Shown one piece after another: positions 40,691 through 52,581 of a stretch of 64,000 nt of DNA. Source of the DNA: Massilia frigida (GTDB lineage Bacteria; Pseudomonadota; Gammaproteobacteria; Burkholderiales; Burkholderiaceae_D); NCBI RefSeq assembly GCF_011682175.1, contig NZ_WHJG01000002.1, positions 248,001 to 312,000 of the forward strand, given 5' to 3'. A model generated the notes under the pieces. The model was not told the DNA's origin, ran no database searches, and saw only the letters and a list, made by a program, of their open reading frames with translations. Position numbers and translations under genes: made by a program. How positions within the stretch are numbered: position 1 is the stretch's first letter; every line of letters starts with the position of its first letter.

Positions 40691-41263
40691 ATGGAACGAA
40701 TACCTGAGGTAAGCAGCTTGCGCAGCACGGAATTGCGCTTGCACGCCCTGTTCTTGCAAGGACTCGACGGCGACGCCCAGGCCTACCGCGTCTTCTTGCA
40801 GGCGACGGCGTCGCATTTGCGGGCCTTCCTGCGGCGGCGCCTGAACCGCTGGCCGGACGAGGTCGAAGATCTGGTGCAGGAATCGCTGCTGGCGATCCAT
40901 AACCAGCGCCTGAGTTACGATACCGGCGTGCCGCTGACGGCGTGGATGGTGGCGATTGCCCGCTACAAGCTGGTCGACTGGATGCGCCGCCATGCGCGCC
41001 GCGACGCCCTGACCGAGCCGCTGCCCGACGAAGACGCTTTCTTTTCCAGCGCCGACGCCGATGCCGGCGAGGCGCGGCGCGACCTGGGCAAGCTGCTGGC
41101 CACCCTGCCGGTCAAGCAGCGCGAGGCGATCGTCTACACCAAGCTCGACGGCCTGTCGGTGCGCGAAGCGGCCGACGCCCTGCAAATGACCGAAGCGGCG
41201 GTCAAGGTGTCCGTCCACCGCGGCTTGAAAACCCTGGCAACCCTTTTGAAGGATGCGCTATGA
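40691..41263 (+). CDS. ECF-type RNA polymerase sigma factor (SigF/NrsF-associated)
   Basis: 190 residues. Region 2 contains DEVEDLVQESLLAIHNQRLS and WMVAIARYKLVDWMRRHARR; region 4 contains LPVKQREAIVYTKLDGLSVR and EAADALQMTEAAVKVSVHRG, the DNA-binding helix-turn-helix. Its stop overlaps the start of the NrsF-like anti-sigma gene (ATGA). Divergent MsrP-like genes carry a SigF-like promoter, so they are its likely targets, in line with a role in heavy-metal or oxidative stress. Confidence 0.93.
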   Translation: MERIPEVSSLRSTELRLHALFLQGLDGDAQAYRVFLQATASHLRAFLRRRLNRWPDEVEDLVQESLLAIHNQRLSYDTGVPLTAWMVAIARYKLVDWMRRHARRDALTEPLPDEDAFFSSADADAGEARRDLGKLLATLPVKQREAIVYTKLDGLSVREAADALQMTEAAVKVSVHRGLKTLATLLKDAL

Positions 41264-41901
41264 ACACAGATGACTTGATTGACATGCTCTCCAGCGGCCC
41301 GGACGTGCGCGTGCAGGCGGCCCCGGCCCGCACCGCCCTGCTGCCGCTGGCCGCCGGCTTGCTCGCCAGCACCTTCATCGTGCTGGCCGGGCTGGGCCTG
41401 CGCGCCGACCTGGCCCAGGCCGCCACCCTGGCGCCGTTCTGGACCAAGCTTGCCTTCTCGCTCGCCTTGGCAGCGGCCGGCGCGCTGGCGCTCAAACGCC
41501 TGGCCACGCCGGGCGCGCGCACCGCCATGCTAGCGCTGCTGCTGAGCGCGCCGGTCGTGCTGATCTGGTGTCTGGCGGCAATGATGCTGTGGCAAGCGGC
41601 GCCCGAGCTGCGCGCCGAGCTGTTCTGGGGCCGTACCTGGCGCAGCTGCCCGCTGCTGATCGCGCTGATCTCGCTGCCCCTGTTCGGCACCGCGCTGCAC
41701 GTCGTGCGCAACCTGGCGCCCACCCGCCTGCGACTGGCAGGCGCGGCCGCCGGATTCGGCGCCGGCGCGGCCGCCGCCGCCGTGTACTGCCTGCATTGCC
41801 CCGAGGCAAGCGCGGTATTCGTCGGCTTCTGGTACCTGCTCGGGATGCTGATCCCGGCGGCCGTCGGGGCCCTGATCGGCCCGCGCGTGCTTGCATGGTA
41901 G
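41260..41901 (+). CDS. NrsF-like (DUF1109) membrane anti-sigma factor
   Basis: 213 residues, coupled by ATGA to the sigma gene. Short cytoplasmic N-terminus MNTDDLIDMLSSGPDVRVQA, then about six transmembrane helices; the cysteine pair in AVYCLHCPEASAVFVGFWYL matches the two conserved cysteines reported as needed for NrsF signalling in Caulobacter. Expected to hold the sigma factor at the membrane until a metal or oxidant is sensed. Confidence 0.9.
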   Translation: MNTDDLIDMLSSGPDVRVQAAPARTALLPLAAGLLASTFIVLAGLGLRADLAQAATLAPFWTKLAFSLALAAAGALALKRLATPGARTAMLALLLSAPVVLIWCLAAMMLWQAAPELRAELFWGRTWRSCPLLIALISLPLFGTALHVVRNLAPTRLRLAGAAAGFGAGAAAAAVYCLHCPEASAVFVGFWYLLGMLIPAAVGALIGPRVLAW

Positions 41902-41993: not shown

Positions 41994-42006
41994 ATTTATA
42001 TCGATC
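41994..42006. repeat. 13-base repeat ATTTATATCGATC, copy 2
   Basis: Identical to 40655-40667. It is followed at once by a 7-base hairpin GGCTCAA / TTGAGCC (42009-42029, loop of 7), which may act as an operator or weak terminator in the nrsF to activator gap. No other feature was seen in 41902-42074. Confidence 0.5.
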
Positions 42007-42074
42007 CGGGCTCAACGAACATTTGAGCCTTGTCAAACATTGTGCAACTTTCTTTGACCGGGAGAATGACGCGC

Positions 42075-43439
42075 ATGCTAGCCCGACTGGCCCTCCCACT
42101 CTGGATCCACGCGTTTGAACCGGTCAGTGCGGCAGTGCGCGCCAAGGTGGCGGCGGCGCTGGAACAGGCCGGGCTGGAGCCGCAAGCGGGCGGCGCCCTG
42201 ACGGCCGGCTTCGGCCTGGTCTTGATCGATGGCGTCGATAGCGCCGTGCTGGAGCGGGTGCGGCCCCTGGCCGCCGGCGCCAGCGTGCTCGCCATCGCCG
42301 TGGGTGCGCGCGCGCCGGCCACGGCCGACATGTGGGCCCTGCTGGACGCCGGCGTCTTCGATGTGCTCAGCTGGACCGATGCCAGCGGCGACGCCGCCCA
42401 GGTGCGGGCCCGCCTGGAGCGGCGCGACGCCCTGCAGCGCCTGGCCGACTCGCCCGCCGTGAGCAATTGCCTGGTCGGGGTCAGCCCGGCCTGGCGCGCG
42501 CTGGTGCACAGCGTGGTCGAAGTGGCCGCCTTCACCGAGTCGCCGGTGCTCATCACTGGCGAAACCGGCACCGGCAAGGACCAGATTGCGCAACTGATCC
42601 ACCGCCTCGGCGGGCGCGGCGAGCTTACCGTGCTCGACTGCACCACCCTCACGCCCGAGCTGGCCGGCAGCGAGCTGTTCGGCCACGAGCGCGGCGCCTT
42701 TACCGGGGCCGCCAACGCGCGCGACGGCGCCTTCGCGCTGGCCGACGGCGGCGTGCTGTTCCTCGACGAAGTGGGCGAACTGCCGCTGCCGCTGCAAGCG
42801 CAATTGCTGCGCGTGCTGCAAGAACACACCTATAAACGGGTGGGCAGCAATACCTGGCAGCATTCGCACTTCCGGCTGGTGTGCGCCACCAACCGCAGCC
42901 TGGAAGAGGAGGTGGCCAATGGGCGCTTCCGGGCCGACCTGTACCACCGCATCGCGGCCTGGCGCTGCCGCACCCCGCCCCTGCGCGAACGCAGCGACGA
43001 CGTGCTGCCGCTGGCGCGCCATTTCCTGGCGCTGCTGGCCGGGCCGGGCGTGCCGTGCGAATTCGACGACGCCGTGCGCGAATTCCTGCTGCTGCGCCAA
43101 TACCCCGGCAACGTGCGCGAGCTGCGCCAGACCGTCGCGCGCCTGTGGTACCGCCACAGCGGCCCGGGCCCGATCACCATCGGCGACCTCGCGCCCGACG
43201 AGCGGCCCGCGCGTGGCGGCATGGCGGCCTGCTGGCCCGATGTGCGCTTCGAGAGCGCGATCCGCGAGGCCATCGATTTGCGCATCGGCCTGGCGCGCAT
43301 CAGCCAAGCCGCGGCCGACATCGCGATCCAGCTGGTGCTGGAACAGGAAGGCGACAACAACCAGCGCGCCGCGCTGCGCCTGGGCGTGACCGACCGCGCG
43401 CTGCAAATCCGGCGCAAGGCGTGGGCCGATGCGCACTGA
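42075..43439 (+). CDS. Sigma-54-dependent transcriptional activator
   Basis: 454 residues from ATG 42075 with GGGAG about 10 bases ahead; ATG 42066 is possible. Residues 1-140 form a degenerate receiver-like domain (VLIDGVDS, MWALLDAGVFDVLSW). The AAA+ domain has Walker A GETGTGKD (162-169), the sigma-54-contacting loop GAFTGA (207-212), Walker B VLFLDEVGELPLP and an arginine finger region. The C-terminal Fis-like HTH reads LVLEQEGDNNQRAALRLGVT. No histidine kinase gene is adjacent. It converges on the eight-gene cluster 43453-51461, whose promoter is sigma-54-like, and is its probable activator. Confidence 0.93.
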   Translation: MLARLALPLWIHAFEPVSAAVRAKVAAALEQAGLEPQAGGALTAGFGLVLIDGVDSAVLERVRPLAAGASVLAIAVGARAPATADMWALLDAGVFDVLSWTDASGDAAQVRARLERRDALQRLADSPAVSNCLVGVSPAWRALVHSVVEVAAFTESPVLITGETGTGKDQIAQLIHRLGGRGELTVLDCTTLTPELAGSELFGHERGAFTGAANARDGAFALADGGVLFLDEVGELPLPLQAQLLRVLQEHTYKRVGSNTWQHSHFRLVCATNRSLEEEVANGRFRADLYHRIAAWRCRTPPLRERSDDVLPLARHFLALLAGPGVPCEFDDAVREFLLLRQYPGNVRELRQTVARLWYRHSGPGPITIGDLAPDERPARGGMAACWPDVRFESAIREAIDLRIGLARISQAAADIAIQLVLEQEGDNNQRAALRLGVTDRALQIRRKAWADAH

Positions 43440-43452
43440 CGCCGGACGCGCT

Positions 43453-44178
43453 TCAATGCCCGATCAGGCGCAGCAGGTTTTGGCCCAGCACCAGCGCCTC
43501 GTCGTCCCGCGCCAGGCCCAGCATGCCGATCTTGGCCAGCTCCACGCCCGGATGCAGCCACGGACCGTCGGAGCCGAACAGCAGCTTGTGCGCGCCGGCG
43601 CGCCGCACCGCCATCTCCAGCAGGTCGAAGCGGCGCACCCCGGCGCTGTCGGCGTAGATGTTGCGGTGGCGCGCCAGATGGTCGACCAGCGCCAGCTGCG
43701 CGCTCCAGTCGTCGGCAAAGCTGCCCAGGTGCGGCAGGATGAAGTTCACGTCGGGGAACTGGCTGGCCAGCAGTTCGGCCACCGCCACCTCGCCCGTCAC
43801 GTCGTACAGCACCGGCAGGCGGAAGAAGCGCGCGGTCTCGCACACCTCGCGCGAAATGCGCGCGTCGTGCCGGTGCAGCTTGATGCCCACGAAGCCGTAC
43901 TCCTCCACCGCCACCCGCACCATGGCGCGCACCCGCCCGCGGTCGCGCTGCGCATGCACGAAGGCGAAGCCGTAGAAGCGGCCCGGGTCGGCGGCCACGA
44001 TGCGCGCCACGCTGCGGTTGGCCTGCGCATAGTCGGAGTGAAACGCGGCCAAGAGCACCGTGCGCGCGATGCCGGCCTGGCGTGCCCGCGCCAGGTAGCG
44101 TTCGAGGCCGGCGTCGCTGTCCCACGGGCCGGAAAAGCCGTCGCCCTCGCCCGCATGGCAATGGCAGTCGATGATCAT
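43453..44178 (-). CDS. Amidohydrolase (PF04909 type), last gene of the sigma-54 cluster
   Basis: 241 residues starting MIIDCHCHAGEG, in which H-x-H is the usual metal-binding pair. Further motifs are GIKLHRHDARIS, FILPHLGSFADDW and LLFGSDGPWLHPG with the catalytic Asp, typical of the amidohydrolase_2 (ACMSD/TIM-barrel) family. An in-frame extension upstream is rejected because it runs through the neighbouring gene. The ATG overlaps the previous gene's stop (ATGA). Substrate unknown; the context suggests a modification or turnover step for a cluster product. Confidence 0.88.
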   Translation of the reverse strand: MIIDCHCHAGEGDGFSGPWDSDAGLERYLARARQAGIARTVLLAAFHSDYAQANRSVARIVAADPGRFYGFAFVHAQRDRGRVRAMVRVAVEEYGFVGIKLHRHDARISREVCETARFFRLPVLYDVTGEVAVAELLASQFPDVNFILPHLGSFADDWSAQLALVDHLARHRNIYADSAGVRRFDLLEMAVRRAGAHKLLFGSDGPWLHPGVELAKIGMLGLARDDEALVLGQNLLRLIGH

Positions 44179-44825
44179 AGATCGAGCACGATGCGGCGGC
44201 CGCCCTGGCGCCGCCATGTGCCGCTGCTGCCGCCACCGCTGCTTCTGCCCCGGAGGGCAGGCGAGGACTCGCGCAGTTGCGGCATGTGGCAGCGCAGCGC
44301 CGCATCGAGCGCCTGGCGCGCGGCGCGCTGCGGATCGGCACCCTGCCCCGCCAAGCCGGCCTGCTGCGCCGCCGTGCCGGCGATGCGCACGAAGCGGCGC
44401 GCCATTTCCAGCTCGCGCTCTTCGCCTTCCAGGCCGACCGTTTCCATCTCCAGCGCCTTGGCCAGGGCGCCGCCAAGCGCGCCGCCGATGGCCGTGCCCA
44501 CGCCAGGAATCGGAATGAAGGACCCGAGCGCGCTGCCCACGAACGGCAGCGCGGTCTTGGCCAGGCCCTTGAGCATGCCGCCGAGCGGCTTGGCGACCTT
44601 GCCGATGAAGGAGCCGACCTTTTTGACGCCCTTCCAGATCCCCTTGAACATATTGCCGAGGAACTGTTCGAGTTCTTCCTCGCTGGCGACCGACATCAGT
44701 TCCATCGCCAGCGCGATTTCTTCCTGCTCCCCGAAGGGACCGGGCACTTCGAATTCGAGCATTTCCAGTTCGCCCATCTCGGCCTGCTGGCGGCATTTGG
44801 CACAAGCACATCCTGACCCTTGCAT
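44175..44825 (-). CDS. Glycine-zipper protein, paralogue B
   Basis: 216 residues. N-terminal CxCxxC (GSGCACAKC), then the acidic leader GELEMLEFEVPGPF; helix EEELEQFLGNMFKGIWKGVK; a long hydrophobic glycine-zipper stretch (SALGSFIPIPGVGTAIGGAL, then GGALAKAL); a charged helix ERELEMARRFVRIAG; and the C-terminal signature TWRRQGGRRIVLDL. The same order of elements appears in 50072-50791 and 50850-51461. No signal peptide. The glycine zipper resembles pore-forming peptides, but activity is unknown. 36 bases after the GIY-YIG gene. Confidence 0.8.
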   Translation of the reverse strand: MQGSGCACAKCRQQAEMGELEMLEFEVPGPFGEQEEIALAMELMSVASEEELEQFLGNMFKGIWKGVKKVGSFIGKVAKPLGGMLKGLAKTALPFVGSALGSFIPIPGVGTAIGGALGGALAKALEMETVGLEGEERELEMARRFVRIAGTAAQQAGLAGQGADPQRAARQALDAALRCHMPQLRESSPALRGRSSGGGSSGTWRRQGGRRIVLDL

Positions 44826-44861
44826 GATATTCTCCTTCAGTTGATGAAGCGTTGGCGAACG

Positions 44862-45509
44862 TTAGCGCCAGGATTCGCCGAACAGCTCGGCCTCCAGCTC
44901 GGTGCGCGTGTTGGTCAGCGTCGGGTTTTTCGTGGCGTTCGGTCCCGACTTGACACCCATATTCTTGTGCAGATCCTTTTCCACGGCGCGGCGCTGGTCG
45001 TCCGTCAGGGCGGTTTTGGCGACGAAGACCGTATGCTTGGCCACGTCCAGTCCCAGCATGGTGGCGCACAGGAGATGCTGCTGGAGCCGGCGCTTCACGC
45101 TATCGCTCTGGCCGCTGTAGGCGCGCTTGCCTGTCGGACCATCGAACTCGATCAGGTAGAGGCCCGCCACATTGGCGTCCGGCGAGCGCACCGCATCGCG
45201 CAGCGAGCCAATGCGTTTGTACTGTGGCGCGCCGCCCCCCATCTTGTCGAGTGCCGGTTTGATGGTCTTGGGTGTTTCATCCTGCGGCTCGTCGGCGTCG
45301 GCGTCGGGCGCAGGGCCGTACCCATACGGTTCCGGCCAGGGAGCCAGCACCGGGTAACGCCAGCCGCCCCACGCCGGCCCGCGTGGCGCTGGCGGCCTGG
45401 CCGGCCAGGTGCGCCCCATCGGGGGCCGTGGCGCGCGCGCCGGCGCCCCACGGCGCGCGCCGCGCTCTTGTTCCATCCCGAATTCCAGCATTTCAAATTC
45501 CGTATTCAT
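44862..45509 (-). CDS. GIY-YIG domain protein with acidic EMLEF leader
   Basis: 215 residues; AAGGAGGG directly ahead of the ATG decides the start. The N-terminus MNTEFEMLEFGMEQE shares EMLEF with paralogue B. A Pro/Arg-rich linker (residues 20-90) follows, then a GIY-YIG-like domain: VAGLYLIEFDGPTGKRAYSG, then QSDSVKRRLQQH. The canonical second half (Y-I-G) is replaced by AYSG, and the usual C-terminal Glu/Asn residues are not obvious. A nuclease function is possible but unproven. Overlaps the 3' end of the PLP enzyme gene by 17 bases. Confidence 0.78.
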   Translation of the reverse strand: MNTEFEMLEFGMEQERGARRGAPARAPRPPMGRTWPARPPAPRGPAWGGWRYPVLAPWPEPYGYGPAPDADADEPQDETPKTIKPALDKMGGGAPQYKRIGSLRDAVRSPDANVAGLYLIEFDGPTGKRAYSGQSDSVKRRLQQHLLCATMLGLDVAKHTVFVAKTALTDDQRRAVEKDLHKNMGVKSGPNATKNPTLTNTRTELEAELFGESWR

Positions 45510-46566
45510 ACTCCCTCCTTGTGTGTTCGACTGAACCTGTCTGCGCGCGCAGGCAGGCCGCCAGCAGCGCCAGTGCGCGTTCGATGTCGCCCGGCGCATG
45601 GCGCGCCGTGACGATGAAACTGAGCGTGGCCTGCGTGCCCGCCCGCTGCAGAACCGCATCGACGCCGGCGCTGCGCAGGCAGGCGTGCAGCGCCACGCCG
45701 TCGGTGCGGCTATCGAGCGCCAGCGTCTGCACCGGAAAGGCGCTGGCGCGCAATGCGATGCCGTGCCTGGCCGCGCCGGCGCGCCACTGCGCCACGCGGC
45801 ACCACAAACGCCGCCGCAACTGGTCGCCGTGGACGCGGTTGATGCGCAGCGCCGCCAGCGCGGCCCGGATCGAGGCCACCGATGGCGGGCTGGAATGCAC
45901 GCGCGCCTGGCTCGATTGGCCGAAGCGCCGCACCAGGTCCGCGCTGGCGCACAGCACCGCCAGCGGCGCGCCGAAGGCCTTCGACAGCGAACTGCCGACC
46001 ACCACGTGCGGCCCGTTGACGCCGTGCCGGCGCAGCGAACCGCCACCGCCGCTGCCAAACAGTCCGATGACCTGGGTGTCGTCCAGCACCAGCCAGCCGC
46101 CCGCCTCGCGCGCCAGCGCCGCGTATGCGGCCAGCGGCGGCGCCTGGGCCGCGCCGGGCGAGTAGCCGTCGGCCAGGATCAGCGGACGCCTGCCCTGGCG
46201 CCGCGCCGCGGCGGCCAGTTGCCTCAGCGCGCCCAGGTCGGCATGGGCGAACACCGTGAGCGGCGTGCCCCTGGCCGCCGCGCGTTCGGCCCCGGCCCGC
46301 GCAATCGGGTAGCTGGCGCCGTCGACCAGGATCGCCACCCGGGCCTGCGCCATCAGCTCGAACAGATCGCAGAACAGGTGCAGGGTCGATGGCAGCAGGG
46401 TCGCCGCCTCGCAGCCGCACAGCAGCGCCAGCGCGGCCGCCAGCTGCGCCGCGCCCGGCGGCTCGCTGCTGGCCGCCGGCCGTCCCAGGGTCAGCGCATC
46501 CCACTCGCCCAGCGCCGTGCTGGGATGGCGCAGGCCCAGGTACAGGGCGTTGGCGAAGTCCAGCAT
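45493..46566 (-). CDS. PLP-dependent enzyme of the alpha-oxoamine synthase (AONS-like) family
   Basis: 357 residues. Fold type I aminotransferase with the AONS-family lysine motif VVVGSSLSKAFGAPL (Lys196 expected to bind PLP). The usual DEAHSxG loop reads LVLDDTQVIGLFG, so the conserved histidine is changed to Gln. The N-terminus is shorter than in AONS/KBL/serine palmitoyltransferase. It may condense an amino acid with an acyl donor, or have lost that activity. 13 bases after the 718-residue protein gene. Confidence 0.82.
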   Translation of the reverse strand: MLDFANALYLGLRHPSTALGEWDALTLGRPAASSEPPGAAQLAAALALLCGCEAATLLPSTLHLFCDLFELMAQARVAILVDGASYPIARAGAERAAARGTPLTVFAHADLGALRQLAAAARRQGRRPLILADGYSPGAAQAPPLAAYAALAREAGGWLVLDDTQVIGLFGSGGGGSLRRHGVNGPHVVVGSSLSKAFGAPLAVLCASADLVRRFGQSSQARVHSSPPSVASIRAALAALRINRVHGDQLRRRLWCRVAQWRAGAARHGIALRASAFPVQTLALDSRTDGVALHACLRSAGVDAVLQRAGTQATLSFIVTARHAPGDIERALALLAACLRAQTGSVEHTRREYEYGI

Positions 46567-46579
46567 GCCGCGCGCTTGC

Positions 46580-48736
46580 TCACGCCATCCGCGCCTGCTG
46601 GTCCAGGCGCTGGCGCAGCAGGATCGAGGGCAAGGTGCCTTCCGCCTTGGGATCGCGCGCGTCGACCGTCAGGTCGACCCCGGTGGCGGCGCGGTAGGCG
46701 TGGATGTAGCCCTGGATCTGCGGACGCCAGAAGCGCGCCCAGTTGAAGGCCTGGGTCGGTTCGTAGATATCGCTCCAGGCGCCGTAGCGCACCGACAGCA
46801 GCACCTGTTCGCCGAACATGGCCAGGCTGCGGAAGTGCATCACGCTGGTGTCCGACCATCCCTGCAGCTTCTTCATGGCGTCCACCCGGTCCATCCACGG
46901 TTCCGGATAGGCGACCATGATGCGGGTCGGGAGAAACTCGCGGAACTCGGGCCGCGCCAGCATCCACTGCTGCATCAGCATTTCGATGCGCGCCGTCGAC
47001 GGCAGGTCGCCGAACTGGTTGTGCGCGCCCTGCGACAGGATCAGGTGCACTTCCTTGAGGCCGTTCAAGACCGGGAAGGCGTCGGCCTTGACGGTGGTGT
47101 CGTCGTCCTGGCGGTAGAAGGAGGTGCACAGGCGCAGCAGGTAGTGGAAGGCTTCCAGGAATTTCGAGCGCGTGTCGGCCGGGCGGAAATGCTGGACCGC
47201 CTTGCCGTCGAGCCGCACGCCGTAATGATGGTCGTACTCGTAATTGCGGCGGACCACGGTGAGGCGATGTTGTTCGTCCTGCGTGTACCCCCAGATCAGG
47301 TTATTCAGTGGGCGCAGGGGATCGATTTCAAGGTTCGCCAGCGGGTCGGCGCGGCCCAGCGCGCGCACGTTCTGGAAGCGCTGGGTGATCGCATTCATGG
47401 TCTGCACCAGCATCCCCTCTTCGTGCCAGTAAGACCAGATCAGCTCCAGCAGGCACGGGTTGGCCAGTTTTTGCTGGACGATGCCGAAGCACATATCGGC
47501 CTCGCCCTCCTGCCCGCGCAGGAGGTGGATCGGCACGTCGGGCAGCTTGCGCCGGATGATCGCCAGGTAAGGCAGCACCTTGGTGCCGTCGACCGTCTCT
47601 TCGAGGTAGTCGGTATTGAAAGTCCGTTCCAGGTCGCGCGTGGCGGGAATGTCGCGCCGGTCCAGGTAAGCCTGGTCCTCGACCGGATTGAAATGCGTCG
47701 GCTGGCTGAGCACCCCGCAGTTGACCATCACGAACGCCTCGGTGGCGACCTTGAGCACGCGGTAGGCTTCCGAATCGTTGAAGGGCAGCGCGCGGCGCTG
47801 GCGCAGCTGCTCGAACAGCGCGCTCTTGGCCTCGAAACCGGGGCCGCGGTTGCCGGGGGTGCAGAACAGCGCATCCATGAAGTTCAGGTAGTTCGTAAAC
47901 GACATCGCGTCGGTGCTGTTGCGGATCAGGGTCCACAGCGGCAGGTCGTCGGTCGGCTCGGTCTCGGTGCGCGTCATCGACACGCCGATGTTGCCCGAGA
48001 TCGGGCTTGGGGTGCGTTCGTCGGCGACAAAACCCTGGCGGATGCCGATCAGGGCCGGCGGCGCCAGCGCCAGGTCCATTTCCGCTGCCGGTACGGCCAC
48101 CGCACCGGCAGCGGCGACTGCGGCGACCGCCCCGGGAGCGTGCATAGCGAGGGAGCGCCGCGCCAACCCCAGCACCGCCTCGAACTGCTGCGGGCCGGCG
48201 TAGTTCACCACGCGCGAGAATTCGTACGGGTCTTTCTCGCTCACGTTCCACCCGGACGAGGACACCACCCGCACGTACGGCTTGAGAGCCTTGTTTTCAT
48301 TGTTGCTGAAGCAGATCTTCGCCACCGCCCGGTCCGACACGCGCGCCGCGTTGCAAGGGGTGAAATGGCAGTCGACCGCCTCGAATCTGAGTTCGGCCTT
48401 CAGCTCCAGCGCCAGCTGGAAGCAGACCACGGCGCGGCAGCCGCCATCGACCTGCACCAGGCGCGGCGCGACCACCGGGTGGTGTTCGTACGCCACCACG
48501 TAGCTGCCTGGCGCCAGGTTGGCGACCGTGACCGCGCCGGCGCTGCCGGTGACGGCAAGCGCCTCCAGCTGGGGCGGCGACGTCGGCCAGTTGGACGCAT
48601 CGAAACCTTTTTCGCCGGGCGTAAATCGGTAAATGCCGACCGTCGCATTCGACACCGGCGCGCCGCTCTGGGCCTCGTGCACGGTCACCTCGAGCGACCC
48701 CGCGCGGGCTTCCTTCACATTGTTCTTGCTGCTCAT
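46580..48736 (-). CDS. Large protein of unknown function with N-terminal prealbumin-like domain
   Basis: 718 residues, the largest product of the cluster. Residues about 14-105 resemble a carboxypeptidase-regulatory/prealbumin-like beta-sandwich (GSLEVTVHEAQSGAPVSNAT, then VTVANLAPGSYVVAYEHHP). A segment with cysteines and GWNVSEKDPYEFSRVV follows. The remaining 500 residues are rich in Trp, Tyr, Phe and Arg (WTLIRNSTDAMSFTNYLNFM, LANPCLLELIWSYWHEEGML, ARFWRPQIQGYIHAYRAATG) and match nothing I recognise. No signal peptide. Ten bases after the HEVGH gene; clearly part of the same operon. Confidence 0.75.
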   Translation of the reverse strand: MSSKNNVKEARAGSLEVTVHEAQSGAPVSNATVGIYRFTPGEKGFDASNWPTSPPQLEALAVTGSAGAVTVANLAPGSYVVAYEHHPVVAPRLVQVDGGCRAVVCFQLALELKAELRFEAVDCHFTPCNAARVSDRAVAKICFSNNENKALKPYVRVVSSSGWNVSEKDPYEFSRVVNYAGPQQFEAVLGLARRSLAMHAPGAVAAVAAAGAVAVPAAEMDLALAPPALIGIRQGFVADERTPSPISGNIGVSMTRTETEPTDDLPLWTLIRNSTDAMSFTNYLNFMDALFCTPGNRGPGFEAKSALFEQLRQRRALPFNDSEAYRVLKVATEAFVMVNCGVLSQPTHFNPVEDQAYLDRRDIPATRDLERTFNTDYLEETVDGTKVLPYLAIIRRKLPDVPIHLLRGQEGEADMCFGIVQQKLANPCLLELIWSYWHEEGMLVQTMNAITQRFQNVRALGRADPLANLEIDPLRPLNNLIWGYTQDEQHRLTVVRRNYEYDHHYGVRLDGKAVQHFRPADTRSKFLEAFHYLLRLCTSFYRQDDDTTVKADAFPVLNGLKEVHLILSQGAHNQFGDLPSTARIEMLMQQWMLARPEFREFLPTRIMVAYPEPWMDRVDAMKKLQGWSDTSVMHFRSLAMFGEQVLLSVRYGAWSDIYEPTQAFNWARFWRPQIQGYIHAYRAATGVDLTVDARDPKAEGTLPSILLRQRLDQQARMA

Positions 48737-48746
48737 GTCAATCTCC

Positions 48747-50066
48747 TTAGTGGAAAGTCAAAGGTGCCCGGGGAAGCGCCGGCGCTCGCGCGTCCAGCGA
48801 GGCGCACAGGAAGCTGGTATCGAGTGTGCTGCGCAGCGCCCAGTGCGTCAGCAGTTTGGCCAGCAGGACGTTTTCGTCCTCCGGCCCGACCAGGCCATCG
48901 GCGCGCGCCTGGCCCAGCACCGCGAACACCAGCGACGGCGGGGCGCGGTACATCTGCGCGGGCGCGCCCTCCCAGCGCCGGTACAGGGCCGAGAGCGCGG
49001 CCGGCTGGCGCCGCGCCACATCGAGCACCTCGGGCAGGGTCTTGCCGCGCAGCGCGGCCGGCCGGTGCCGCACCAGGAGCGCGACAAAGTCGCGCATGCC
49101 GCGCCGCAGCCGTCCCAACAGGTCGACCGTTTCCGGCGCCAGGGTGGCGCTCGGGTAGTAGTCGTGCCACACATTGGCCAGGCGCTCCCACTGCGGATGC
49201 GGATACAGGGCCTGCCCCATCGCGCAACTGAGCATCACGCGGATCCACGGGATCGGATGGGGATCGTCGGGACTGAGGCGAAACACGAACACGCGCGGCA
49301 GGCTGACCACCCCGATCAGGCCCAGGGTCGAGACCACGCCGACCCGCGCCACCGACCAGAAATCGGCCACGATCTCGGAAATCCAGCGTTCCCACCACTG
49401 CCATACCTCGCGCTGGGCCGGGTCGCTTTGCTGCATCGCCTGCAGTTCGGGGCGCAGCGAATTGACCAGGTCGAGCAGGGCCGCGCCCTGGTGTCCGACC
49501 TCGTGGATCAGCGACGAGGCGATGCCGCTGCCGATCATGCGTTCGCGCGGCACCCGCACCACCGCCACCGGGTTCTCGCCGCCGCCCGGCAGGCGGGTGC
49601 GCGCGCGCCGGATCGCCGCGCCCGGCCCGCGGTCGAGATAACAGACCACCGGCGGCAGGCGGTAATAGTCGCCCGGCAGGGTCAGGGCGTCGGCCGCGAC
49701 CGCGTCCAGGCCGGACAGCCAGACCCCGTTTTCGTGCTCGCTGCGCTGGGTGATGACATCGTTGAACAGGTCGAACTGGGTCAGCGTGGCATTGAACTTG
49801 AGGCGCAAGAAGGTGAAGCGGCGCTGCGCCTCGGACGCGCTGGCGGTGTCGCGCGCGCCGGCCAGCCAGTGCTGGAAGGCCGCGACCAGCGCCTGCAGCT
49901 CGCGCCGCCCCGTGACCAGATAGCGCTCGAGCGCCGCCTGGGCCGACGGCAGCAGCGCGGCCGCCGGAACCATGGGCTCGATCAGGGCAAAGGGGCGGAC
50001 CCGCGCCAGCCTGGTTTGCAGGGAGCGCGCTTCCTGTTCGAGCAGCGACGAGGCATACGGGCTCAT
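48747..50066 (-). CDS. Gluzincin-like HEVGH protein, possible metalloprotease
   Basis: 439 residues. HEVGH at residues 188-192 is followed 38 residues later by EIVAD, a spacing and shape fitting the HExxH...ExxxD zinc site of gluzincins. Upstream is GGGENPVAVVRVPRERMIGS; helices around the site (SSLIHEVGHQGAALLDLV) are consistent with an active-site helix. The rest is helical, with ALYPHPQWERLANVWHDYYP. No signal peptide. It starts six bases after paralogue A stops. A processing peptidase for the paralogues is an attractive but untested idea. Confidence 0.75.
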   Translation of the reverse strand: MSPYASSLLEQEARSLQTRLARVRPFALIEPMVPAAALLPSAQAALERYLVTGRRELQALVAAFQHWLAGARDTASASEAQRRFTFLRLKFNATLTQFDLFNDVITQRSEHENGVWLSGLDAVAADALTLPGDYYRLPPVVCYLDRGPGAAIRRARTRLPGGGENPVAVVRVPRERMIGSGIASSLIHEVGHQGAALLDLVNSLRPELQAMQQSDPAQREVWQWWERWISEIVADFWSVARVGVVSTLGLIGVVSLPRVFVFRLSPDDPHPIPWIRVMLSCAMGQALYPHPQWERLANVWHDYYPSATLAPETVDLLGRLRRGMRDFVALLVRHRPAALRGKTLPEVLDVARRQPAALSALYRRWEGAPAQMYRAPPSLVFAVLGQARADGLVGPEDENVLLAKLLTHWALRSTLDTSFLCASLDARAPALPRAPLTFH

Positions 50067-50071
50067 GACAG

Positions 50072-50791
50072 TCAGGCGCCGTAGAGGACGATCTTGTTGC
50101 CCTGACGGCTCCAGCGGCCGCTGGCGCCACGTCCGCCGCCGCTGCCCATGCCGCCACCGGAGGACATGCTGGCGCCGCCCAGTCCCGCACCAGCGCCGCC
50201 ACAGCTCCCGCAGCCGCCGCCGGCCGCGCCGCGTCCGAGCAAACCTGGCGCATGCTGGCGCGCGGCGGCCGTTGCCGCATTCTGGGCGATGGAGCGCGGG
50301 TCGCCCGAGGCCGGCGCCTGCGATGCTTTCTGCACCGTGTCGGCGGCCAGGCGCACGAACTGGCGGGCGCCTTCGAACTCGCGGTCTTCGCCGCTCATTT
50401 CCCCTTCCAGCCCGAGCGCGCCGCCGGCGGCCGAGGCCAGGCCGCTGCCGATCTTGGCGCCCAGCGGGCCGCCGAAATAGCCGCCGATGGCGCCACCGGC
50501 GAGCGGCAGGGCTTTCTTGGCCACGCCTTTGAGCACGCCGCCGACGGCCTGCCCGATCGGCGAGCGGATCACGCGGCCGGCCGTGGCGCCGACCTTGCGA
50601 ATGAAGTCGCCCAGGAAGCGGTCAAGCTCCGCTTCGTTGTTCACGTTGAGCAGCTCTTGTGCGAATTCGGCTTCCTGCTGTTCGTTCAAGCCCGATTCGC
50701 CGCTCCACTCTCCCTGGCCGAATTCGAACTGTTCGCCCTCGTAGCTGGTTTCCTGGCCATATTCCATTGTCGTGCGGTCGATGTCATGCAT
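50072..50791 (-). CDS. Glycine-zipper protein, paralogue A
   Basis: 239 residues from ATG 50791 with GGGAG ahead. Acidic, aromatic-rich leader (MEYGQETSYEGEQFEFGQGE), helix EAELDRFLGDFIRKVG, glycine zipper (LPLAGGAIGGYFGGPLGAKI, then GSGLASAAGGALGL), GEDREFEGARQFVRLAADTV, AAARQHAPGLL, a Gly/Cys/Ser-rich linker (GGGCGSCGGAG) and the C-terminal signature RWSRQGNKIVLYGA. Acidic FEFEGE-type leaders with a C-terminal RW-x-R-x-G-x-x-I-x-L-x-G end are something I recall from uncharacterised proteins of several bacterial phyla. Not secreted by Sec. Confidence 0.8.
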   Translation of the reverse strand: MHDIDRTTMEYGQETSYEGEQFEFGQGEWSGESGLNEQQEAEFAQELLNVNNEAELDRFLGDFIRKVGATAGRVIRSPIGQAVGGVLKGVAKKALPLAGGAIGGYFGGPLGAKIGSGLASAAGGALGLEGEMSGEDREFEGARQFVRLAADTVQKASQAPASGDPRSIAQNAATAAARQHAPGLLGRGAAGGGCGSCGGAGAGLGGASMSSGGGMGSGGGRGASGRWSRQGNKIVLYGA

Positions 50792-50849
50792 GATGCGCTC
50801 CCAAAGAAGAGTGAAACAACAAAATGCCCGGATGGACGATCCGTCCGGA

Positions 50850-51461
50850 TCAGCAATCGTGAACAATCAGCTGGCCCGCCTGGCGGGTCCAGCGTCCGTG
50901 CGTGGCCGGCGGCAGCGCGATGCGCGGCAGCAGGCCAGGTGCGTGTTGACGCGCGGCGGCTTGCACGGCGGCGCGCGCGTTCTGCGGCGATGGATGACCA
51001 CCCTCGCCGGCCTTGCCGGCGTGGCGCGCGGCTTCGTCGGCAAGGCGTACCAGCTGGCGCGCCAGGATGAATTCCTTGTCCTCGGGGCTGAGGCCTTCGA
51101 GTTCGAGGCCGAGCATGCGTGCACCGAGGTTGATGCGCACGCTCTTGCCGTGCGCGCTTGCCAGGCCGGGGCGCAGCGGCGTCAGGATCGGCTGCAAGGC
51201 GCGCACAAGTTCGGCGACCAGCAGCGGTCCCATTGGCGAACGCGCCACGCGCGCACCGAGCACGCCGGCGCCGGCGATGGCGCGGCCCAGCACGCGCCGC
51301 AGGTCGGCCGGCTGGTCCGCTTCGAGCAGTTCGGCGGCCAGCGCCAGGTCGGCGCTGTCGTCGGAGAGCGGGCCGGCCTCGGATTCCTGCGCCTCGGCGC
51401 GCGGCGTGGCGTTGGTGAAGATGTCGAAGACCGGACTGTATTCAAGCAGGCGACGGTTCAC
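50850..51461 (-). CDS. Glycine-zipper protein, paralogue C, first gene of the cluster
   Basis: 203 residues from a GTG at 51461 with AGAGAGG seven bases ahead; the open frame continues upstream but that part would lie in the promoter. Core elements match paralogues A and B: ADLRRVLGRAIAGAGVLGAR, SPEDKEFILARQLVRLADEA, AAARQHAPGLL (11 residues shared with paralogue A) and the end HGRWTRQAGQLIVHDC. The hydrophobic centre is less glycine-rich. The sigma-54-like promoter lies 75 bases upstream. Confidence 0.78.
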   Translation of the reverse strand: MNRRLLEYSPVFDIFTNATPRAEAQESEAGPLSDDSADLALAAELLEADQPADLRRVLGRAIAGAGVLGARVARSPMGPLLVAELVRALQPILTPLRPGLASAHGKSVRINLGARMLGLELEGLSPEDKEFILARQLVRLADEAARHAGKAGEGGHPSPQNARAAVQAAARQHAPGLLPRIALPPATHGRWTRQAGQLIVHDC

Positions 51462-51535
51462 GGGCGACCTCTCTGTGTAGTGGCGGATGCGCGTGGAAGA
51501 AAGGTTGATGCTGCTGCGCGTCCTGATCCATCTAT

Positions 51536-51551
51536 TGCAAGGGCTGTGCCA
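51536..51551 (-). promoter_or_regulatory. Sigma-54 (-24/-12) promoter of the eight-gene cluster
   Basis: Leftward strand reads cTGGCACagcccTTGCAat: TGGCAC (51551-51546), five bases, TTGCA (51540-51536). This matches the TGGCAC-N5-TTGCW consensus with the invariant GG and GC at correct spacing. Transcription would start near 51525, giving a leader of about 64 bases before the GTG at 51461. Confidence 0.85.
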
Positions 51552-51593
51552 GCGCGCGCAAGGGGCAAACGGCCAGGCGGGCGGCAGTGGCGG

Positions 51594-51650
51594 CGAAATG
51601 CGTTTCGTACAAGCCGCCGTTAGGGGCCGGCGTGGCGAAAAGCGTTTCGC
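51594..51650. promoter_or_regulatory. Two CGAAA-N4-TTTCG dyads, candidate activator enhancer sites
   Basis: Copy 1 is CGAAATGCGTTTCG (51594-51607); copy 2 is GCGAAAAGCGTTTCGC (51635-51650). Their centres are 42 bases apart, four helical turns, and lie about 75 and 117 bases upstream of the expected sigma-54 start, the usual enhancer range. The rest of 51462-51780 shows no gene; 51781 has its own ribosome site on the other strand. Confidence 0.75.
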
Positions 51651-51780
51651 ATGCGCCGCATGCACCCATTCCTGCGAGGGGCCTGCCGGACGTATTTGCG
51701 TGGAACGGGTATAGTGATATCAATAGCGCAACAAGCGTTTGGTGATTGCGCCGGCCCGGTTTGACATCCACAAAGGAGAA

Positions 51781-52581
51781 ATGATGCAAGTCAGTAAAGA
51801 CATTCTGTTCCACGCACTGCACGCCGATGGCTTGCTGATGCTGCCCAATTGCGCTGACGCGGGCAGCGCGCGCATCGCCGCGGCGGCAGGCTCGAAGGCG
51901 CTGGCCACGAGCAGCGCAGCGGTCGCCTGGTCGCATGGCTTCGCCGATGGCAGCACCTTGCCGCGCGAGCTGCTGATGGCGTCCGTCAAGGCGATCCTGC
52001 GGGTCAGTTCCCTGCCGCTGACGGTCGATGCGGAGGATGGCTATAGCGCCGATCCCGCGCAGGTCGCCGGGCTGATTGGCGAGTTGATCGATGCTGGTGT
52101 GGTCGGCATCAATATTGAAGATGGCACCGGCGCGCCAGCGCTGCTGGCGGAAAAGATCAGGGCGATCCGGGCAGTTGCCGACGCGCGCGGCGTGAACCTG
52201 TTCATCAATGCCCGCACCGATGTCTATTTGCACGACCAGACCACCGAGCGCGTGCGTGAGACCATCCGGCGCGCCGCCATGTACCAGGAAGCCGGCGCCA
52301 GCGGCCTGTTCGTGCCCTGCATTACCACCGAGGATGACATCGCGGCCGTGGCCAAGGCAACGCCCCTGCCGCTCAATGTGATGGCGTGCGATGGCGTGCC
52401 GGCGCCGGCCCGCCTGGTGCAACTGGGCGCGCGGCGCCGGAGCGCCGGGTCGGCCCTCTCGGCGGCGATGTTCGGCTGCGTCGATACCCTGGCCCGCCCA
52501 GTCCTCGCCAGCGGCACGGTCGCTGTCGCGCCATATGCGCCGATGGACTATTCAGCGCTGAACCGGCTGATGACGCAGTAA
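51781..52581 (+). CDS. Isocitrate lyase / PEP mutase family protein
   Basis: 266 residues; AAAGGAG precedes the ATG, which is followed by a second ATG. TIM-barrel of the PEP mutase/isocitrate lyase superfamily: SLPLTVDAEDGYSADPAQVA (metal-binding D-x-E-D-G), GVVGINIEDGTG and FINARTDVYL. Members cleave or form C-C or C-P bonds, for example oxaloacetate decarboxylation or methylisocitrate cleavage. The usual KKCGH active-site loop is absent. Shares the intergenic region with the sigma-54 cluster, but its own promoter is not evident. Confidence 0.88.
   Translation: MMQVSKDILFHALHADGLLMLPNCADAGSARIAAAAGSKALATSSAAVAWSHGFADGSTLPRELLMASVKAILRVSSLPLTVDAEDGYSADPAQVAGLIGELIDAGVVGINIEDGTGAPALLAEKIRAIRAVADARGVNLFINARTDVYLHDQTTERVRETIRRAAMYQEAGASGLFVPCITTEDDIAAVAKATPLPLNVMACDGVPAPARLVQLGARRRSAGSALSAAMFGCVDTLARPVLASGTVAVAPYAPMDYSALNRLMTQ

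Follow-up and report, generated by a model that had tools for sequence, protein, structure and literature searches.

A conserved gene cluster with a predicted sigma-54 promoter combines a fixed core with variable, often tagged cargo proteins in bacteria of several phyla

Eight genes at positions 43453-51461 on the minus strand of a 64-kb stretch of the Massilia frigida genome (contig NZ_WHJG01000002.1; hereafter, the window) constitute one conserved, patchily distributed accessory system. In gene order, they encode protein C, protein A, a protein with an HEVGH motif (the HEVGH protein), a 718-residue protein, a pyridoxal phosphate (PLP) enzyme, a GIY-YIG protein, protein B and an amidohydrolase; A, B and C are paralogues, and a gene for a sigma-54 activator lies beside the cluster. 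Comparison of related loci shows a fixed core, consisting of an A-type protein, the HEVGH protein and the 718-residue protein, nearly always together with the amidohydrolase and the PLP enzyme, and variable slots around B filled by putative cargo genes. The predicted cargo proteins lack Sec-type starts, and many carry a common short acidic-aromatic tag, as do many B proteins. We tentatively favor, with somewhat less than even confidence, the reading that this is an induced system which, with the HEVGH and 718-residue proteins, sorts tagged enzymes onto an A/B/C scaffold for delivery or release against other bacteria.

Relatives were retrieved with a pattern-based scan for the 718-residue protein in one genome per species: 208 stretches matched, of which 181 contain a gene for a relative; the 80 best of these serve as the named loci, in which the presence of this protein is hence by selection. 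Genes in all 80 loci were called with a home-made codon-usage caller, so that some cargo starts in the relatives are wrong or cut, and some metagenome bins are possibly mis-assigned. The loci come from Massilia, Janthinobacterium, Variovorax, Nitrosomonas, methanotrophs, Nitrospira, Acidobacteria and Rokubacteria, the carriers being scattered bacteria from soil and water in several phyla. The order HEVGH protein, 718-residue protein, PLP enzyme, amidohydrolase, activator is kept, outside Massilia as well, in all 64 named loci with four or five of these genes, and this recurrence across phyla argues that the cluster is more than chance. Moreover, the gene for the 718-residue protein follows every one of the 77 HEVGH genes called across the named loci, and an A/B/C gene comes before 72 of them, B being located after the HEVGH gene in 57 of the 80 best loci and before it in 3. 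A profile tally covered 84 loci, 80 found through the 718-residue protein and four through the HEVGH protein, of which 65 exceed 12 kb and contain the activator, for which they were chosen; all 65 encode an A/B/C protein, the HEVGH protein and the 718-residue protein, and the PLP enzyme is present in 61, the amidohydrolase in 60 and a recognizable GIY-YIG domain in 47.

An independent search with the HEVGH protein was positive in 39 of 294 Oxalobacteraceae genomes, that of M. frigida included, with one copy each, and A and the 718-residue protein were encoded beside it in all 30 Oxalobacteraceae loci fetched, including the window's own, rather than the homologues being scattered singly. Four of 398 genomes from the wider phylum (again including M. 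frigida) and 3 of 149 from the phylum of the Chloracidobacterium locus (including the genome with that locus) were positive. Furthermore, A/B/C relatives are present in all 18 system-bearing whole genomes, every copy lying within about 8 kb on the contig of the cluster. The earlier note on this DNA had proposed one sigma-54-controlled system, and this is supported by the order kept outside Massilia, the clustered homologues and the conserved promoter described below. The tree of HEVGH proteins requires 6 label changes for 6 phyla, the minimum being 5, and is thus no demonstration of transfer between phyla. Five plasmid records contain copies: four are 52-64% identical and lie on large replicons from Ensifer, Rhizobium (2) and Paraburkholderia phymatum, and the fifth, from Paraburkholderia sp. 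PGU19, is distant (25%). A pattern-limited scan of viral contigs with two short peptide patterns of the 718-residue protein matched nine stretches, none of which encodes a relative of it. Loci outside Oxalobacteraceae have no flanking gene family in common, the flanking genes being unannotated.

All eight genes are intact and, as first described, tightly packed in leftward orientation, with gaps of 58, 5, 10, 13, -17, 36 and -4 bases in gene order. A predicted sigma-54 (-24/-12) promoter, TGGCACAGCCCTTGCA, lies at 51536..51551 on the minus strand, where the consensus TGGCAC-N5-TTGCA reads from 51551 to 51536 and the first start codon follows 74 bases downstream; it is the sole match to TGGCA[CT]-N5-TTGC[AT] on both strands of the 64 kb. 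When the 400 bases preceding the first cluster gene were scored for their best -24/-12 site, 48 of 74 loci reached 10 or 11 of the 11 consensus positions, compared with 9 of 680 control regions taken upstream of other genes within these loci; among the 26 misses, some loci are truncated by a contig end. The activator gene (42030..43439, plus strand) encodes an AAA+ sigma-54 interaction domain (Sigma54_activat, PF00158, 6.8e-55), as sigma-54 enhancer-binding proteins do, behind a degenerate N-terminal sensor region. It points toward the cluster, convergently, from the end opposite to the promoter, and in all 64 named loci where it was found it lies downstream of the cluster and on the other strand. 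Adjoining the activator, at 40691-41901, an extracytoplasmic function (ECF) sigma factor-like gene is followed by one for an anti-sigma-like membrane protein, both recognized by reading. The G+C content is 0.68-0.71 at 42001-52000 and 0.58-0.69 in the remaining window.

None of A, B, C, the HEVGH protein and the 718-residue protein reaches a curated family cut-off in Pfam or NCBIfam, and profile searches of the PDB with these five and the GIY-YIG protein gave no credible match. C (203 aa, GTG start, 50850..51461, minus strand) is often the first gene; A (239 aa, starting MHDIDRT, 50072..50791, minus strand) and its glycine-rich paralogue B (216 aa, 44175..44825, minus strand), which has an N-terminal CxCxxC, complete the family. 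The three had been described as glycine-zipper paralogues, which fits A and B, with 21 and 9 GxxxG motifs, and fails for C, which has none. Alignment of A indicates an acidic-aromatic leader, a helical glycine-rich body and a C-terminal GRWxRxGxxIVL hairpin. In its AlphaFold2 (AF2) model (mean predicted local distance difference test score 70.5), the helices 37-94 and 134-191 are mostly confident and the hairpin lies at 226-237; the disordered leader and a flexible glycine-rich stretch are of low confidence. The best comparisons of this model with known folds reached E 1.3 in Foldseek and Z 4.7 in VIA-align, an absence that proves nothing. A has no hits in Pfam, NCBIfam, PHROGs or PADLOC, the last two having been searched with seven of the eight proteins, all except the amidohydrolase. 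For C, Pfam gave a sub-threshold DUF1400 match (0.016) only, and NCBIfam, PHROGs and PADLOC gave nothing. B has eight weak PHROGs hits (best 0.0013), three to tape-measure proteins, one to an endolysin and four to proteins of unknown function, which we read as low-complexity helix resemblance. The maxima of 19-residue Kyte-Doolittle averages (A 1.09, B 1.46, C 1.15) are below those of a typical membrane helix. In some relatives, B is fused to PG_binding_1, GIY-YIG-like or Amidase_2 domains. Many B proteins start with CxCxxC ahead of the tag, possibly a metal site.

The HEVGH protein (439 aa, 48747..50066, minus strand) had no hits in Pfam, NCBIfam, PHROGs or PADLOC. H188, E189, H192, E231 and D235 are invariant in all 19 aligned sequences, including a 22%-identical relative, so to judge by its residues it has the HExxH plus downstream Glu that we take to be the gluzincin ligand pattern. 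The 718-residue protein (46580..48736, minus strand) is predicted to start with CnaB/prealbumin-like beta domains, modeled by AF2 with high confidence and matching SpaD pilin (E 2.3e-6) and a CnaB2 domain (TM score normalized to the target, 0.73); its Pfam matches to CarboxypepD_reg (0.0055), Fn3_arc (0.038) and SpaA (0.082) are sub-threshold. Its C-terminal helical part is strongly conserved and of low confidence in the AF2 model, and we therefore give it no fold name; to judge by the aligned sequences, conserved Glu/His residues of the protein may form a di-iron site.

The AONS-like PLP enzyme (357 aa, 45493..46566, minus strand) is a relative of alpha-oxoamine synthases, with matches to Aminotran_1_2 (3.4e-8), the BioF model (1e-22) and PDB entry 1bs0 (2e-15). 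It aligns with BioF over residues 90-335 and keeps the PLP lysine (Lys196) and the pyridine-binding Asp162. However, it scores far too low for the NCBIfam models (80 bits where bioF requires 426), and the DDAH-motif histidine of alpha-oxoamine synthases (BioF, KBL, CqsA, serine palmitoyltransferase), His207 in BioF, is replaced by Gln165, which is kept at the 97% level among 72 sequences. The PLP gene is absent from 4 of the 65 activator-bearing loci; it is missing from two small forms of the cluster (L116 and L157), and the enzyme is thus not essential to the core. The amidohydrolase (241 aa, 43453..44178, minus strand; Amidohydro_2, Pfam 3.3e-17) is weakly related to gamma-resorcylate decarboxylase (0.0024), and H6, H8, H150 and D204, presumably the expected metal-site residues, are conserved in 57 sequences. 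It is also the least variable product: median identities to the four nearest named Massilia loci are 98% for the amidohydrolase, 94% for the HEVGH protein, 89% for the activator, 88% for A, 85% for the 718-residue protein, 84% for the PLP enzyme, 81% for B, 76% for C and 61% for the GIY-YIG protein.

The GIY-YIG protein, the least conserved product, is the only clear cargo candidate in the window (215 aa, 44862..45509, minus strand). It carries FEMLEF at residues 5-10, followed by an Arg/Pro-rich linker. Its Pfam match falls short of the curated cut-off of 22.6 bits (14.5 bits, E 0.044), and it weakly matches the PADLOC phage-defence-candidate model PDC-S14 (1.4e-4). Y118, R141, H145, E177 and N200, which we assume to be the catalytic Tyr, Arg, His, Glu and Asn of GIY-YIG nucleases, are all kept in 36 sequences picked by similarity to the window copy. 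Unlike known GIY-YIG nucleases, the domain stands behind a tag and linker and is joined in some relatives to peptidoglycan-binding or amidase domains. In three loci of the Nitrosomonas group (L079, L083 and L095), a peptidoglycan-binding domain, a GIY-YIG-like part (identified from weak BLAST similarity to the protein of the window or by inspection) and B form one chain, with an amidase in addition in L095; such fusions tie B and the GIY-YIG protein together.

Outside Massilia, the GIY-YIG position and the stretch between B and the amidohydrolase are often filled by different genes. Of 108 slot candidates listed, 62, nearly all of them from outside Oxalobacteraceae, were scanned with Pfam, which found PG_binding_1 in 20, Amidase_2 in 11, M20 in 8, PG_binding_3 in 7, Trypsin_2 in 6, VanY, OmpA and GIY-YIG in 4 each, NLPC_P60 in 2, and Muramidase, Beta-lactamase2, Extensin-like and HNH in 1 each. 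The idea that the cluster serves the synthesis, maturation and deployment of membrane-active proteins, raised when the cluster was first noticed, is not supported by this evidence: the slots elsewhere are largely peptidoglycan-related, A, B and C lack a membrane-helix-grade segment, and C lacks the zipper. A three-gene insert is present between the amidohydrolase and the activator in the Massilia loci L031 (16038-18235), L032 and L034 and absent in the window and L033; by reading, that of L031 encodes a 172-aa protein, a SagB/nitroreductase-like protein and a GNAT-like acetyltransferase.

At the start of many slot products stands a short acidic-aromatic stretch. Within residues 1-60, EF/FE pairs number on average 2.30 per protein in 97 cargo proteins, 4.93 in 83 A proteins and 2.00 in 62 B proteins, compared with 0.41 in 559 flanking proteins. 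The motif F[ED]xx[PEAGS]F, usually in the form FExxPF or FExxEF, occurs within the first 40 residues of 41 of the 97 cargo proteins, 32 of the 62 B, 4 of the 83 A and none of 38 C proteins, and is absent from all 559 flanking and 101 other products as well as from 77 HEVGH, 80 718-residue, 72 PLP, 59 amidohydrolase and 65 activator proteins. Tagged cargo comprises 40 of 92 non-M20 proteins and, probably by chance, one of the five M20 enzymes that the pattern in this count recognized (Pfam finds eight in the 62 candidates). Shuffling the residues of the N-termini gave a mean of 2.6 motif hits and no more than 8 in any of 1000 trials, and there were none in four downstream windows. The tagged architectures include GIY-YIG, VanY, Amidase_2, muramidase-plus-amidase, HExxH and a sub-threshold Extensin-like protein. 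Most B relatives are tagged or near-tagged, the window's own B with LEMLEF. A search of the M. frigida genome for orphan FExLPF proteins, a pattern that excludes FEMLEF, was uninformative, with 1 hit against 5 for the reversed control. By a crude hydrophobicity cut-off, a signal-peptide-like start was found in 0 of the 97 slot products, 0 of the 62 B and 0 of the 83 A proteins, versus 106 of the 559 flanking genes. Cargo with non-cytoplasmic substrates, without a Sec-like start and often labeled points to a dedicated carrier or to release by lysis.

Under the reading we favor, the sigma-54 activator would turn the system on, the tag would serve as a sorting label recognized by the core, and A, B and C would form a scaffold or particle carrying the tagged enzymes. 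The HEVGH protein may trim or release these enzymes, the 718-residue protein, with its pilin-like CnaB domains, could be a structural or docking part, and the PLP enzyme and amidohydrolase might add or remove a small modification. Once delivered or released, the loaded peptidoglycan hydrolases, proteases and GIY-YIG/HNH nuclease-like domains would hit the wall, proteins and DNA of competitors, with the GIY-YIG protein as the sole clear cargo in the window and B as its likely partner. That the cluster encodes an undescribed sorting or delivery machine, in which A/B/C, the HEVGH protein and the 718-residue protein recognize the FExxPF-type tag, export or package enzymes devoid of signal peptides and deploy them against other bacteria, is possible in our view but doubtful.

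Several points weigh against this proposal. The strongest are the lack of immunity genes and of an exporter and the half of the cargo that bears no tag. The window's cluster contains no gene for immunity, export or an injection apparatus, nor, with gaps that do not exceed 58 bases, the space for one, and 56 of the 97 cargo proteins are without the motif. The motif was moreover defined post hoc from the very sequences counted, and among 92 groupable cargo proteins it is confined to 4 of 13 similarity groups, one with 57 members, because shared domains chain sequences together. M20 enzymes appear untagged, the window's own B bears only a near-tag, searches of A by PDB profile, Foldseek and VIA-align found no carrier-like fold, and GIY-YIG domains are not always DNases.

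The missing immunity and export genes, together with the lack of signal-peptide-like starts in the cargo, would also suit programmed self-lysis, a fairly unlikely alternative in which stress or infection triggers the activator, the glycine-rich A/B/C proteins breach the membrane, and the producer is destroyed by its peptidoglycan hydrolases, proteases and nuclease, so that goods are released or a phage is stopped. A cargo set spanning wall, protein and perhaps DNA and the weak PADLOC hit of the GIY-YIG protein (1.4e-4) are in line with it; however, it calls for neither many interchangeable cargo types nor a common tag and gives the PLP enzyme and amidohydrolase no obvious role, A/B/C have no transmembrane-grade segments, and the window's cluster contains no peptidoglycan hydrolase. 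If instead the tagged enzymes reshaped the peptidoglycan of the producer for a coat, cyst wall or attachment organelle, the prevalence of PG_binding_1 (20 of 62 candidates, the commonest cargo domain), the CnaB/pilin-like domains and the almost invariant amidohydrolase of Massilia would be expected. Remodeling of the producer's own envelope or a surface or dormancy structure is nevertheless unlikely, given the patchy occurrence (39 of 294 family and 4 of 398 phylum genomes), the fast change of the GIY-YIG cargo and the nuclease-type and protease cargo.

Acidic leader-like N-termini, a metalloprotease motif, a PLP family that transfers acyl groups and conserved amidohydrolase site residues recall a small-molecule pathway or one for ribosomally synthesized and post-translationally modified peptides (RiPPs), with A/B/C as precursors, the HEVGH protein as leader protease and the PLP enzyme and amidohydrolase as modifying enzymes. 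We consider this improbable: A, B and C are 203-239 residues long, the body of A is largely helical and its ends are conserved, 4 of 65 loci do without the PLP gene, the tag is common to cargo enzymes, and Pfam and NCBIfam show no RiPP enzyme family among the eight proteins, the search being confined to these and not extending to short peptides. The effector-like cargo and the eight weak PHROGs hits of B, of which three are to tape-measure proteins (0.0035 at best), might alternatively mark an accessory island of a known secretion or phage-tail-like system whose apparatus is elsewhere in the genome. Its probability is low in our estimate, as loci outside Oxalobacteraceae have no common flanking family (flanks unannotated, with the remaining genomes outside the apparatus search) and the pattern-limited viral contig scan found no relative of the 718-residue protein.

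A diverged version of the cluster is present on a Paraburkholderia plasmid (L117:5535-14952) and, in the phylum to which the Chloracidobacterium locus belongs, in one genome (L154:6525-18789). It has genes for two acidic-leader proteins, an HEVGH relative, an M20 peptidase, further conserved proteins and an amidohydrolase with roughly 60% identity to that of the window; a regulator that is LuxR-like by reading replaces the sigma-54 activator. In the same phylum, at L155:6725-10250, an HEVGH relative (29% identity) follows a 756-aa acidic-start protein, the other core genes being unrecognized. Relatives of the 388-aa protein of the diverged version, a neighbor of the distant plasmid copy, are encoded on Burkholderia pyrrocinia and Tolypothrix plasmids (L118 and L119) near S8 peptidases and uncharacterized genes. 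These plasmid clusters were set aside: the leader was not seen in those of their proteins that were inspected, and they look like another system.

If the proposed sorting and delivery holds, it would represent a non-Sec route that brings wall-cutting and nuclease-like enzymes to targets by means of a short tag. Even without delivery, the cluster would be a conserved sigma-54 system with interchangeable peptidoglycan-related enzymes. The system spans environmental bacteria of several phyla, yet is absent from the profile libraries searched, and a single activator gene should turn it on, which makes it directly testable. Among the papers listed in the literature searches none describes the cluster, in a collection that covers few subscription papers and no bioRxiv preprints.

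The earlier view that no known system type fits holds within the libraries searched (Pfam, NCBIfam, PHROGs and PADLOC). Phage holin-endolysin cassettes combine, as here, small glycine-rich proteins with adjacent peptidoglycan hydrolases that lack Sec-like starts. By contrast, the cluster has no transmembrane-grade segments, many additional enzymes and sigma-54 control, and the viral contig scan, limited to peptide patterns, found no relative of its 718-residue protein. Contractile injection genes, that is, those of extracellular contractile injection systems (eCIS), type VI secretion systems or tailocins, were not found in the cluster, seven proteins of which were compared with PHROGs, the flanks and remaining genome being outside that scan. 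In eCIS (PMC11297309), diverse effector-like genes lie beside conserved core genes, as in the cluster, whose own genes, unlike those of eCIS, include no sheath, tube, baseplate or ATPase and whose core proteins are under family cut-offs. Polymorphic toxin systems (Zhang et al. 2012, PMC3482391) join a constant N-terminal trafficking part to interchangeable toxin domains and have peptidoglycan-binding and OmpA domains in common with the cluster. In contrast to such toxins, the window, the only locus checked in this respect, has no immunity gene beside the cargo, and in place of a known trafficking domain many cargo proteins share a short linear tag, a motif present at the N-termini of 41 of 97 cargo proteins with several enzyme architectures.

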